A stretch of 64,000 bases of DNA, from positions 1 to 64,000 of the forward strand of contig NZ_CP112876.1 in the NCBI RefSeq assembly GCF_029910235.1. The letters are read 5' to 3'. This stretch comes from Pseudanabaena galeata CCNP1313. GTDB taxonomy: Bacteria > Cyanobacteriota > Cyanobacteriia > Pseudanabaenales > Pseudanabaenaceae. Each line of letters opens with the position of its first letter. Positions within the stretch are counted from its first letter, which is position 1. This document shows positions 3,891 through 47,034 of the stretch, in pieces. A program made the position numbers and the translations under genes. A model generated the notes under the pieces. It was not told where the DNA came from. It made no database searches and saw only the letters and a list, made by a program, of their open reading frames with translations.

Positions 3891-4219
3891 CAACTACACC
3901 CCTAAGACGCGACTTTAAAGAAACAGTTAATGCAAGAGTCCAAAGAGATTCCGCATTTGCCGCCGCTTTACTTGACGAAGCTATTTCTCTTTTCCTCAAT
4001 GGCGAACCAGAAACCGCGAGACTCATATTGAGAGATCTCGTCAATGCAACCATCGGATTTGAAGAACTAGCGATCGCCACATCTAAACCTAGTAAAAGCC
4101 TTCATAGAATGCTCTCTGCAAAAGGAAATCCCACAATGGATAATCTCACCGCTATTCTCAAAGTTTTGCGTAAAACCCTTCAAGTCGATATCAAAGTACA
4201 GACGGTTACTTGTGCTTAA
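3887..4219 (+). CDS. HTH antitoxin of HigA/addiction-module antidote type
   Basis: A 110-residue partner of the upstream toxin. The C-terminal half carries a helix-turn-helix (FEELAIATSKPSKSLHRMLSAKGNPTMDNL), matching the 'probable addiction module antidote' family in which the HTH binds the operon promoter. The N-terminal half (DFKETVNARVQRDSAFAAALLDEA) is the toxin-facing segment common in this family. The start overlaps the toxin stop by 4 bp. A candidate operator lies at 3489-3506. Confidence 0.8.
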   Translation: MTTTPLRRDFKETVNARVQRDSAFAAALLDEAISLFLNGEPETARLILRDLVNATIGFEELAIATSKPSKSLHRMLSAKGNPTMDNLTAILKVLRKTLQVDIKVQTVTCA

Positions 4220-4320
4220 AATATCTCTGCTCATCTCGTAAGAGTGGGTTTCAAGTAACGAGTAATCGCTTATTCTTGAGAAAGATTTTAGTTGTGAAAA
4301 GCAGTTAACGGCGATCGCTC

Positions 4321-5456
4321 ATGTCAGATTTAATTACGCAACTATGTCAGCTAACGGTGGAGATACTGAAAGCTAATCCTCAAGAGGATTTGGCTGAGTT
4401 TGTGGAATTGGTCAAGAAAAGCATCGATGCTGATTCACAGTTAGGTGAGGCAATACAAAGCGATCGCCTGTTAACGCAGGTCAATCGAGATGGGAGCAAG
4501 GGTTATCAAACCTTGGTTGCGGGTGGTGTTGCGAATATTGGCAATACTTACCTCAATGATGTGCAGCCAGAGATGTTGCAGGAAATCTTGCAACGAGTTT
4601 TAGAAAACATCCTGAAGTCACAGCCACATTTCAAGCAAACAGCACCAAAAGATCATAACAAGAGCTTTTATAACAATCTAGGCGATCGCGAAATTGACCG
4701 AGATGGAAACTTTGTTGGAAGGGAGCAGGATTTAGAGGAATTGCACGATTTATTGCAGGCGCAAAGCGAAAGCTCGCCTTTGCCAATGGTGTTAATTTCT
4801 GGGATGGCAGGGATGGGGAAAAGCGAACTAGCGCGGCAGTATGGCAAATTGCATTTAGATGATTATGCGGGTGGGGTGGGAATATTCGAGGCAGCGCAGT
4901 TTGGTGAATCCCTTAGAGACTTTATGCAGTTGAGATTTTGTGAAGATGGGGATTTACGGCACTTCACCAAATTAGAAACACAGGTAGAGGAAGGCTGGCA
5001 GCAGTGGCAAAAGTTTTGCGGTGAGGAGAAAATAGCGCTGATCTTGATTGATGACGTGACCGAATATCAAACACAGGTTTTGCCATACTTGCCGAAGAGT
5101 TTAGGAGATGTCCATCCGTTTCGATTTGTGCTGACCTCGCGATCGCTATTGCAGGGTAAATTAGCGTTGCTGGAAATTCAGGAATTGAAGACCGAGGCAG
5201 CGTTACAGTTATTGACCAAATGGGCAGAACCAAATCAGCAAACCTTGCTAGACAATCCTGAGATCGCCGCAAGCCTTTGCAATCGTTTAGGCTGTTTGCC
5301 ATTAGCCCTAACTTTGGTCGGTAGTTGGCTCAAGAATTCCCAAGCAACTTTACCGATCGTGATCGCGGAATTGGAACAAAACGGGCTAGGAAGCGAAGTA
5401 TTGGAACCCTATGAAGTAGCGCCCGAAAATATCGATTCTGGAAAGAACATTAAGCA
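4321..5456 (+). pseudogene. NB-ARC STAND gene truncated by Tn3-family transposon
   Basis: A paralogue of the gene at 1-3402. It shares the N-terminal domain (MSDLIT, QTLVAGGVANIG) and an NB-ARC with Walker A SGMAGMGKSE and Walker B ALILIDDV. The reading frame is native to about residue 379 (KNIKQG). It then enters the transposon's left inverted repeat and stops at 5541 after about 28 foreign residues. Everything downstream of NB-ARC (the winged-helix part and repeats) is missing. The lost 3' part is not found on the far side of the transposon, where cydA lies instead. This looks like a deletion or inversion end point rather than a simple insertion. It probably has no STAND signalling function. 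Confidence 0.85.
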
Positions 5457-42507: not shown

Positions 42508-42848
42508 ATGGAAGCACGTCCGCAAGAGGTGATCTTTTACGCAACCGAAGACGACGAGCGTCCCTTTGAACTTTGGTTAGAATCACTACGCGATCGTCAA
42601 GCAAGAGCTTGAATTAAAGCACGACTCGATCGAGTTGAAAATGGAAACTTTGGAGACTACAAGCCTGTTGGATCAGGAGTCATAGAACTCAGAATTGACT
42701 ACGGACAAGGTTATCGAATATATTTTGCTCAAGCAGGAGAAACCATAGTTCTTTTGCTATGTGGCGGTGACAAAAGCACCCAAAATCAAGATATCATCAA
42801 AGCAAAGCATTACTGGGTAGATTTTCAGAGGAGAAAAAATGCCAACCT
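42508..42848 (+). pseudogene. Gp49/HigB-type toxin with in-frame TGA
   Basis: Reads MEARPQEVIFYATEDDERPF, then RQARA, then TGA at 42610-42612. It continues IKARLDRVENGNFGDYKPVG and LRIDYGQGYRIYFAQAGET to a stop at 42848. Compared with intact family members, the TGA likely replaces TGG. The toxin is therefore probably dead, while its overlapping partner gene is intact. Read-through or a sequencing error cannot be excluded from sequence alone. Confidence 0.75.
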
Positions 42849-43144
42849 ATAAAAGCTATCATTCCTATCTAATTGAATCCTTAAAAGATCCCTTAGAAGC
42901 TGCTGCTTACTTAGATGCAGTCCTAGAAGATGGTGACTTTGAACATATTTTATTGGCTTTGAAAAATGTTGCAGAAGCTCAACAAGATGTTACTAACAAT
43001 TCAAAAAACAAAAAGCTGAATTTAGATCTCAACTCTCAACTATTTCCAAACCAACAGCCCAGCGAGTTAATGACAATTGCTAAATTACTAAACCAATTAG
43101 GGCTAAAACTCTCTGTAACTGTTCAGGAAAGACAACCTGCCTGA
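42839..43144 (+). CDS. Antitoxin of the inactivated toxin
   Basis: 101 residues starting MPTYKSYHSYLIESLKDPLEAAAYLDAVLE, with the helical core typical of HigA-type 'probable addiction module antidote' proteins; the HTH segment lies in ELMTIAKLLNQLGLKLSVTV. It overlaps the toxin frame by 10 bp. Confidence 0.78.
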   Translation: MPTYKSYHSYLIESLKDPLEAAAYLDAVLEDGDFEHILLALKNVAEAQQDVTNNSKNKKLNLDLNSQLFPNQQPSELMTIAKLLNQLGLKLSVTVQERQPA

Positions 43145-43230: not shown

Positions 43231-43428
43231 ATGATAATTTTAGAAGAACTCGAAGATGAAATTCAATGGAATATTTCAGTTGAACATTCTCAAGACGTAC
43301 TAGCAAAACTAGCTAAAGAAGCAATGTCTGAGTATCATTCAGGCAAGACTCAAGAAAATGAACGAAGCCGATCGCAATCCACCACAGATTACTCCAAATA
43401 TCCAAGTAACAGCGCAAACACTTTTTAG
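43231..43428 (+). CDS. Small antitoxin-like ORF overlapping the YhcG-type gene
   Basis: 65 residues. LEELEDEIQWNISVEHSQDV and KLAKEAMSEYHSGKT resemble small antitoxins found before RelE-type toxins in cyanobacteria. Its last ~24 codons overlap the next gene in another frame, suggesting it once ended earlier or is a remnant whose toxin was replaced. Confidence 0.4.
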   Translation: MIILEELEDEIQWNISVEHSQDVLAKLAKEAMSEYHSGKTQENERSRSQSTTDYSKYPSNSANTF

Positions 43429-44425
43429 CGAAATTCGTCAGCTTATTGATGCCGCCAAACAACGCGCCGCCGTTGCCATCAATGCCGAAATTACACTGCT
43501 CTATTGGCAAGTCGGCGATCGCATTCAAACCGAAATACTCCAACGTCAACGCGCCGAATATGGCAAACAGGTTATAACAGAACTTTCGCGACACCTTACC
43601 CAAACTTACGGTAAAGGCTGGAGCGAAAGGCAACTGCGCTATTGCATCCTGATCGCCGAAGTTTTTCCCGATCGAGAAATTTTGCATACACTGTGTGCAA
43701 AATTGAGTTGGTCACATCTCAAGCTAATAATGGGTATAGATGACCAACTAAAGCGCAATTTCTACATCGAGATTACACAACTCGAAAATTGGAGCGTTCG
43801 CCAACTACAAGAACGCATCAACTCCATGCTATTCGAGCGCACCGCCATCTCCCGCAAACCCGAAGAAACCATTCGCCATGATTTAGAACAATTACGCGAA
43901 AACAAGCAAATATCACCCGATTTACTGCTAAAAGATCCCTACATCCTAGACTTTTTAGATATAAGCGATCGCTACCTCGAAAAAGACCTCGAAGATGCCA
44001 TCCTGCGTGATATCGAGAAATTTTTATTAGAACTTGGCGCAGGATTCACCTTTATTGCAAGACAAAAACGTATCCAAATTGATAACGACGACTTTTATAT
44101 TGACCTGCTGTTCTATAACCGCAAACTCAAACGCCTTGTTGCGATCGACCTCAAACTCGGCAACTTTCGCCACGAATACAAAAGCCAAATGGAACTTTAT
44201 CTGCGTTGGCTTGCCAAATATGACCAAGAAAGCGATGAACAATCCCCATTGGGAATCATTTTATGTGCAGGTAAAAAACAAGAACAGATTGAACTACTCG
44301 AACTAGACAAAAGCGGTATCCATGTCGCCGAATACCTCACCGTATTACCTCCCAAAGAATTACTTCAAGCAAAACTACAACAAGCGATCGCATCGGCTCG
44401 TCGTCGATTACCTTCGTTAACGTGA
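43358..44425 (+). CDS. DUF1016/YhcG-type PDDEXK nuclease
   Basis: 355 residues. The N-terminal winged-helix part (SRHLTQTYGKGWSERQLRY) and the C-terminal PD-(D/E)XK nuclease domain (IDNDDFYIDLLFYNRKLKRLVAIDLKLGNF) fit the DUF1016/YhcG family. Its members are associated with restriction or mobile-element loci and with host takeover or TA-like functions. Asp, Asp and Lys catalytic residues are present. The gene's stop codon lies within a family-C hairpin element. Confidence 0.85.
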   Translation: MNEADRNPPQITPNIQVTAQTLFSEIRQLIDAAKQRAAVAINAEITLLYWQVGDRIQTEILQRQRAEYGKQVITELSRHLTQTYGKGWSERQLRYCILIAEVFPDREILHTLCAKLSWSHLKLIMGIDDQLKRNFYIEITQLENWSVRQLQERINSMLFERTAISRKPEETIRHDLEQLRENKQISPDLLLKDPYILDFLDISDRYLEKDLEDAILRDIEKFLLELGAGFTFIARQKRIQIDNDDFYIDLLFYNRKLKRLVAIDLKLGNFRHEYKSQMELYLRWLAKYDQESDEQSPLGIILCAGKKQEQIELLELDKSGIHVAEYLTVLPPKELLQAKLQQAIASARRRLPSLT

Positions 44426-44532
44426 GTTCGATATAGCCATTTGCGCCGCGCTTCGCGCGGCACAAATGGCGCAAAATGGTAAAAATTGCAAAGCAATTTT
44501 TACCATTTTGCGCTTTTGTCGAACTGACGTTT
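44417..44532. repeat. Family-C double-hairpin element
   Basis: Ends TTAACGTGAGTTCGATAT and GTCGAACTGACGTTT are near-complementary. Inside are two stem-loops: GCCATTTGCGCCGCG-type and GCAAAATGGTAAAAATTGC with its partner. It contains the TGA stop of the YhcG-type gene. Confidence 0.85.
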
Positions 44533-45235: not shown

Positions 45236-45358
45236 AGCGAATACTTTGAGTTGGTTTTCAATACCATAATTCTAATCTCTAGCTCTCAATTCGTAACAAG
45301 TCGCTATCCGAATATTATCAGAATGTCTTTTAAAAAGCGCGATCGCCTGTCTAAATAT

Positions 45359-45432
45359 TATCCCGTACAAAGGATAAACTTGATTTTATAATCTACAAGG
45401 GATAAACTAAATTTTATACCCTAAAAAGGATA
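45359..45432 (+). promoter_or_regulatory. Three HipB-type operators with 28-bp spacing
   Basis: O1 45359-45376 is TATCC, 8 bases, GGATA, a perfect match to the HipB consensus TATCC-N8-GGATA known from E. coli. O2 45387-45404 is TATAA-N8-GGATA. O3 45415-45432 is TATAC-N8-GGATA. Starts are exactly 28 bp apart. They precede hipB by 14 bp (O3) to 70 bp (O1), fitting cooperative autorepression of hipBA. Confidence 0.85.
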
Positions 45433-45445
45433 CAAGCATCAGACC

Positions 45446-45697
45446 ATGCTAATCCACTCCTCCAAAGAACTAGCTGAATATCTACGCGATCGCCGCAAAA
45501 GACAAAAATTAAGCCAAGCCGAAATAGGCGATCGGGTAGGTATCAAGCAAGCCACCATCTCCGCCTTTGAAAACAACCCCGAAGGCACAAAATTAGAAAC
45601 TCTATTTAAACTATTCTCTGCTCTAGATCTAGAAATACAGATTATTCCCAAAGAAGAAGCCCGTAAGCCTAAACAAGGATGGAAAGAAGAATGGTAA
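45446..45697 (+). CDS. hipB: HipB-type antitoxin/repressor
   Basis: 83 residues with an XRE helix-turn-helix (LAEYLRDRRKRQKLSQAEIGDRVGIKQATISAFE). A C-terminal tail (EEARKPKQGWKEEW) follows, in the position where HipB tails contact HipA. It should dimerise on the operators upstream. It overlaps the hipA start by 7 bp. Confidence 0.88.
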   Translation: MLIHSSKELAEYLRDRRKRQKLSQAEIGDRVGIKQATISAFENNPEGTKLETLFKLFSALDLEIQIIPKEEARKPKQGWKEEW

Positions 45698-47034
45698 GAA
45701 CAAGGCGTGTTAATAGCCTCAATATCCTCATGAATGGCTATCTAGTTGGGACTTGGCAAAACTTACCCAGTGGCGCAATGAACTTTCAGTATGCAGAAGA
45801 ATGGCTAGAAACTGACGGAGCGCGTCCCATCTCTTTATCAATGCCCTTACGCAGACAGCCCTATGAAGGAGATCTTGTCTATAACTTTTTCGATAACTTG
45901 CTACCAGATAGTCGCGAAATTCGAGCAAGAATTCAAAAACGCTTTAGTATCTCCACCTCACAGCCATTCGATTTATTAACAGCGATCGGAGCCGACTGCG
46001 TTGGAGCGATCCAAATTTGTCATGAAGGCATTTCCCAAACTATAGAGACAACCCAATCACAGCCACTGTCAACGGATGAAGTTGCCAGATATTTGAAAGA
46101 ATATAAAACAACTTCTATAGGAACAACCCAAAATAATAACGATTTCCGCATATCGATCGCAGGTGCTCAAGAGAAAACTGCCTTACTTTGGCATAAAGGA
46201 AAATGGTGTCGTCCTATCGGCACTACGCCCACCAGTCATATCTTCAAGTTTCCCATTGGCATAATTCCTAATGACAATTTAAACATGAGTGATAGCTGCG
46301 AAAATGAATGGCTATGTCTCCAAATCGCCAAAGCATTTGGATTACCCACAGCCGAGGCTCAAATTCAGCATTTCAATGATGTCAAAGTATTAGTTATAGA
46401 GCGCTTCGATCGCCGATGGTCTCAAGATCGACGGTGGTTGATCAGGCTTCCTCAAGAGGATATGTGCCAAGCATTAGGAATGTCGCCAAACTTGAAATAT
46501 CAAAATCAGGGCGGAGCAGGAATCAGTGAAATCATGAAAGTATTACTCGGTGCTGAAGATGCTAATGGCGATCGTGAGAAATTTTTTCGCAGTCAAATTC
46601 TATTTTGGCTATTAGCCGCCACAGATGGACATAGTAAGAACTTCAGTATTTACATTAATCAAGGCGGCAGCTACAGATTAACGCCTCTATATGATGTAAT
46701 TTCTGTATATCCATTCATCAAAAACAAGTCTCTATCCAAACGTAACGCCAAGATGTCCATGTCACTTAGAGGAGAGAAGACAAACTATTACAATTGGGAA
46801 TCAATTCAGCCAAGGCATTTTATCTCGACAGCCAAGGCAGTTAATTTTTCAGAAGCAAAGGCAAGCATAATTCTAGAGGAGATGCTGACAAACGTTGATG
46901 ATGTAGTCGCTCAAGTCAATACAGTCCTACCAGAAGACTTTCCTACTCATGTCAGTCAGCCAATTTTGGAGGGGATGCTATCTTTAGCCAAGCGATCGCT
47001 AAACAATCGCGCACAATGGATTTACCAACCTTAA
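45691..47034 (+). CDS. hipA: HipA-type serine/threonine kinase toxin
   Basis: 447 residues from ATG 45691 (VRTRRVNSLNIL). Kinase features are ISIAGAQEKTALLW (the ATP-loop), a conserved catalytic segment TDGHSKNFSIYI and LTPLYDVIS (metal-binding Asp). In E. coli HipA phosphorylates glutamyl-tRNA synthetase to cause persistence; here the target is unknown. It follows hipB in the same operon with overlapping reading frames. Confidence 0.88.
   Translation: MVRTRRVNSLNILMNGYLVGTWQNLPSGAMNFQYAEEWLETDGARPISLSMPLRRQPYEGDLVYNFFDNLLPDSREIRARIQKRFSISTSQPFDLLTAIGADCVGAIQICHEGISQTIETTQSQPLSTDEVARYLKEYKTTSIGTTQNNNDFRISIAGAQEKTALLWHKGKWCRPIGTTPTSHIFKFPIGIIPNDNLNMSDSCENEWLCLQIAKAFGLPTAEAQIQHFNDVKVLVIERFDRRWSQDRRWLIRLPQEDMCQALGMSPNLKYQNQGGAGISEIMKVLLGAEDANGDREKFFRSQILFWLLAATDGHSKNFSIYINQGGSYRLTPLYDVISVYPFIKNKSLSKRNAKMSMSLRGEKTNYYNWESIQPRHFISTAKAVNFSEAKASIILEEMLTNVDDVVAQVNTVLPEDFPTHVSQPILEGMLSLAKRSLNNRAQWIYQP

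Follow-up and report, generated by a model that had tools for sequence, protein, structure and literature searches.

Genes and putative operators at the hipBA locus

The window, by which we mean the whole 64-kb stretch of Pseudanabaena galeata CCNP1313 DNA analysed here, contains a hipB gene directly upstream of a hipA gene, with overlapping ends, the arrangement of a type II toxin-antitoxin system of the E. coli type (Table 1). The recognition helix of the HipB protein is identical to that of E. coli HipB, the closest solved relatives of the protein are the E. coli HipB structures, and its C-terminus (...KEEW) carries the tryptophan described as universally conserved in HipB (PMC3376134). The best NCBIfam match was HipB (NF007271), with 70.7 bits, under the curated cut-off of 79, and the protein is consequently filed as a HipB-like antitoxin rather than an equivalog of the E. 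coli protein. The HipA protein matched PF13657 (N-terminal), PF07804 (C-terminal, kinase) and TIGR03071, all above cut-off, and was 45% identical to E. coli HipA (phmmer E 6e-115). As a HipA of the E. coli type, it would be toxic, phosphorylate GltX and be neutralised by HipB. All three kinase residues (S150, D309 and D332, E. coli numbering) are present, as are the residues altered in hip mutants (G22, P86, D88 and D291), and those associated with hipA7 and dimerisation (G22, D88 and D291) are also conserved in 81-85 of the aligned HipAs.

Table 1. Positions in the window of the hipBA genes, the putative HipB operators and the proposed promoter elements.
Feature	Position	Strand	Sequence	Remarks
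Putative operator O1	45359..45376	+	TATCCCGTACAAAGGATA	TATCC-N8-GGATA, 0 mismatches
Putative operator O2	45387..45404	+	TATAATCTACAAGGGATA	2 mismatches, both in left half
Putative operator O3	45415..45432	+	TATACCCTAAAAAGGATA	1 mismatch, in left half
Proposed -35	45380..45385	+	TTGATT	In O1-O2 spacer; placed from family pattern
Proposed -10	45403..45408	+	TAAACT	17 bp after -35; starts with the final TA of O2
hipB	45446..45697	+		XRE-type antitoxin/repressor, 83 aa; recognition helix IKQATIS, C-terminal Trp
hipA	45691..47034	+		Predicted Ser/Thr kinase toxin; start 45691 (or 45679), overlaps end of hipB

Other features were observed in the window. A gene for a DUF1016/YhcG-type PDDEXK nuclease, with a strong match to the PADLOC candidate PDC-S02, lies near hipBA (43358-44425), preceded by an HI1420-like addiction antidote gene (42839-43144). 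A perfect 21-bp inverted repeat with a 3-bp loop occupies an intergenic position (44469-44513), and a similar sequence is found at locus L104. What is probably a coding repeat spans 1575-2811, where 7.8 copies of a 126-bp unit stand in tandem and a 252-bp period is visible as well.

Three sites of the TATCC-N8-GGATA type, constituting a putative HipB operator array, precede hipB, the last ending 13 bp upstream of the operon. A renewed examination of the sequence agreed with the sequence-only reading: O1 is a perfect site, O2 and O3 follow at exact 28-bp steps, and all three right halves are GGATA. The mismatches are thus confined to the left halves, and O2 and O3 may be weak sites. The same three copies, at steps of 28 and 28, were returned by a repeat finder run without a pattern. 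An Rfam scan of the operator region gave no match. The step corresponds to 2.67 helical turns at 10.5 bp per turn, close to the 2.7 turns given originally. It is also the step between neighbouring operators in E. coli, which was correctly said to use several sites: in MG1655, four perfect sites precede hipB, at -134, -106, -67 and -39 (steps of 28, 39 and 28), and the published E. coli O1O2 oligonucleotide has a 28-bp step too (PMC3376134).

A chance likeness to the HipB site in AT-rich DNA would be in keeping with the frequency of single sites, as 30 sites with no more than two mismatches were found in the window, against 25.6 expected; this near-chance frequency means that single sites carry little information. 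The O1-O2-O3 set is, however, the only equal-step triple in the window (any step of 18-60), no such triple was found in 60 random windows (first-order Markov), the array adjoins hipB, and it has been kept among Pseudanabaena copies with differing surroundings. We give this explanation virtually no credence, and the random windows and Pseudanabaena copies refute it in practice. The 5.84-Mb genome has perfect TATCC-N8-GGATA sites at just two locations, O1 and C1:3687630. The latter was considered as a second HipB target and rejected, as it has no hipB downstream and lies in or beside a long, apparently repetitive coding stretch with long ORFs.

Placement of the proposed promoter

An inter-site spacer contains TTGA in 39 of 66 hipBA loci and its reverse complement in three of the 66. 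At most loci with TTGA, a TAnnnT often starts 16-17 bp past the hexamer and makes use of the last TA of the operator. One operator often sits between a -35 element (TTGA) and a -10 element across loci. In the window, O2 would lie between the proposed -35 and -10, and O3 over the expected transcription start. A strict sigma-70 consensus scan of the operator region detected no promoter, so the -35 and -10 elements of the window were placed on the basis of the family pattern, and the proposed -10 is a poor match.

Pseudanabaena copies and their origin

Seven hipBA copies in Pseudanabaena, that of the window included, share the array. O1 is present in five of the seven; L005 lacks its left half and L018 the whole of it, indicating that O1, and hence a set of three sites, is not indispensable. 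In four other Pseudanabaena settings, the shared DNA starts within or just before the array (45339-45380). Several copies have features of their own. The L105/L005 copy (G239:C13) has lost about 1 kb from within hipA (window 45909-46915), with hipB and two operators kept. In a plasmid hipBA copy (L103, positions 4095-4784; G290:C5), hipB and hipA are separated by an ORF similar to an IS1-type transposase, and some 16 bp matching window positions 45712-45727 occur on both sides of this insert. Genome G290 (L004, L016 and L018) has hipBA in triplicate: two of the copies share a contig, where their orientations are opposite, and the third is on a plasmid contig.

The operon and its operators could have been imported recently from an enterobacterium, given that the recognition helix and the O1 consensus are exactly those of E. 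coli, that the distribution is patchy (14 of the 390 genomes searched in the class carry hipBA) and that the L020 copy is located on a plasmid. In a quick tree, however, the cyanobacterial HipAs formed a single clade, with support 95 and at a large distance from the HipA of E. coli, to which the window protein is 45% identical. The nearest relatives among cyanobacteria also differ in helix and half-site, with the 28-bp pitch unchanged. Recent import was rejected on the basis of this quickly inferred HipA tree, and we regard it as highly improbable.

Spacing of operators across hipBA loci

We investigated the spacing in a set of 80 loci obtained by a HipA-alignment scan of 84,980 genomes, supplemented with the E. 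coli locus and with 17 found by searching 390 genomes of the class. The hipB gene of each locus was located by profile, and the 180 bp before it were scanned, with no motif supplied, for the repeat period from 15 to 60 that fitted best. Before the removal of near-copies, a period of 28 fitted best in 50 loci and one of 27 in another 20. For 88.6% of 69 non-redundant loci, the best period was 27, 28 or 54-56, versus 9.6% of 2083 control segments drawn from elsewhere in the surveyed loci. The steps reported by the family-model site caller, which permits only 27 and 28, were not counted as evidence of pitch. A held-out set of plasmid and viral-contig loci had the pitch in 24 of 28 cases, and the four exceptions (L114-L117) have the most distant HipAs (identity ≤33%). 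The absence of the pitch from distant HipA families indicates that the rule belongs to a HipA clade, not to HipA proteins generally. Within this clade, the spacing is kept almost throughout upstream of related hipB genes, the outcome of a check proposed in the sequence-only reading. As the intervals in Caulobacter have already been published (PMC7029023), this generalisation extends an existing remark.

A pitch of 27 bp was common as well as one of 28 bp, suggesting that the geometry tolerates one base. Arrays mixing the two steps were observed upstream of hipB at L041, L042, L043, L044, L050 and L053, and 11 changes between 27 and 28 were counted on the HipA tree.

The pitch might instead be set by the promoter, with one operator fitted between the -35 and -10 elements and the other copies arising by tandem duplication of the 28-bp unit. 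The TTGA in the spacer and the TAnnnT 16-17 bp downstream at many loci are consistent with such an origin, as are the identical copies in some arrays (e.g. L009, L011 and L047). Nevertheless, three or four successive sites keep the pitch when a promoter needs only one, and it is kept between copies that have diverged considerably (e.g. L012, L065 and L076). In E. coli, moreover, the step is 28 within pairs and 39 between them, and distant HipA families lack the pitch despite having a helix-turn-helix-type antitoxin. We therefore consider a promoter-set pitch unlikely, though less so than the other alternatives discussed here.

Correspondence between recognition helix and half-site

The letters of the half-site followed the residues of the HipB helix. 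In sites called with the family model, and with counts inflated by the relatedness of the loci, all 30 loci with K38 had C at half-site position 5, 17 of the 18 with R38 had G at position 6, 10 of the 13 with K40 had A at position 4 and all 15 with the KQA helix had TATCC, and D40 was accompanied by C at position 3 in 14 of 14 loci, versus one of 49 without D40 (p 4e-13). The held-out loci gave R38 with G6 in eight of eight cases, K38 with C5 in four of four and KQ[ASTN] with TATCC in four of four; one of these last four (L129, on a viral contig) has the helix and the sites of E. coli itself. In independent pairs on the HipA tree, helix and half-site changed together and almost never in opposite ways, with about 5/6 in the best case (p about 0.06), the pairs being too few to reach firm significance. 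Conservation of the half-sites upstream of related hipB genes, also proposed as a check, was consequently found to be partial: they are conserved where the recognition helix is kept, but otherwise change with it. At the level of sequence, the reading of the sites as HipB operators with E. coli-like recognition, as put forward for this locus, is supported. A table of helices and half-sites of this kind would predict which hipBA copies within one genome can cross-regulate.

Proposed model of repression

Taken together, the genes and their upstream sequence make it very probable that this array serves an E. coli-type hipBA operon as its autoregulatory operator, acting by cooperative repression in which adjacent HipB2-HipA2 complexes would touch through HipA. 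A HipB dimer would read each 18-bp site through Lys38, Gln39 and Ala40 of its recognition helix (E. coli numbering) and would carry two HipA kinases; the 28-bp spacing would let the HipAs on neighbouring sites touch, leading to cooperative repression with HipA held inactive. With O2 between the -35 and -10 elements and O3 over the start, filled sites would exclude RNA polymerase, and the loss of HipB would open the promoter. HipA is known to dimerise within E. coli HipA/HipB/operator complexes (PMC7029023, PMC7180214). For this organism, we infer binding, cooperativity and repression from sequence comparison. Contact between HipAs would be what dictates the pitch, as suggested by the retention of the pitch while all else varies and by its absence from distant HipA families.

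The sequence-only reading had left the choice between a cooperative and a looping mode. The conserved arrangement suits cooperative binding. Looping would require a tetramer bridging sites on different faces over bent DNA; at 2.67 turns, neighbouring sites are about 120 degrees apart, and HipB imposes a 70-degree bend on its operator (PMC3920265), both of which would be compatible with it. The sites are, however, adjacent, the spacers of 9-10 bp (10 bp in the window) are too short for a plausible loop, no distal site was found, and contact along a bent filament accounts for the same facts. We see little prospect of looping being the mode of action here.

HipBA operators may follow a rule for the entire clade, one that we hold to be slightly more probable than not: contact between HipAs would fix the 27/28-bp pitch, and the half-site would be free to vary, its letters being readable from HipB residues 38 and 40. 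The Pseudanabaena array would then represent the E. coli specificity in a separate HipA lineage. If this is true, promoter DNA is constrained by a quaternary contact of HipA even as specificity diversifies. The contact that HipAs make with each other on operator DNA has been proposed to be disturbed by the high-persister mutation G22S (PMC7029023, PMC7180214), and a pitch conserved across phyla would be an independent indication from evolution that such contact is both functional and widespread. The value of the locus lies in its having led to a testable general rule, with a fixed pitch and variable letters.

Comparison with known systems

The hipBA operon of E. coli K-12 has the same consensus, recognition helix, gene order and 28-bp step between neighbours, and likewise several sites upstream of hipB. 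It differs in having four perfect sites in two pairs, whereas the three sites of the window are evenly spaced and two are imperfect in their left halves, and the HipAs are 45% identical. The hipBA1 and hipBA2 promoters of Caulobacter crescentus, likened here by published description, have inverted repeats at intervals fitting the E. coli HipA/HipB/promoter complex (PMC7029023), in another species and with other sequences. In the HipBST system of Legionella pneumophila, a relative of HipB likewise reads three inverted-repeat sites at even spacing, but with 53-bp gaps, another half-site and a toxin split into HipS and HipT (PMC10653801). The hipBA loci of Halomonas (L041), Serratia (L035), Photobacterium (L026) and Brenneria (L042) have a KQA or KQS helix, TATCC half-sites and a 27/28-bp pitch, although they belong to another phylum and several mix steps of 27 and 28. 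The locus had been singled out as standing apart; this view was not upheld, as almost every close relative of this hipBA has the same pitch, which had already been remarked upon for Caulobacter (PMC7029023). It is a further hipBA locus with E. coli-like operators, in a cyanobacterial lineage.
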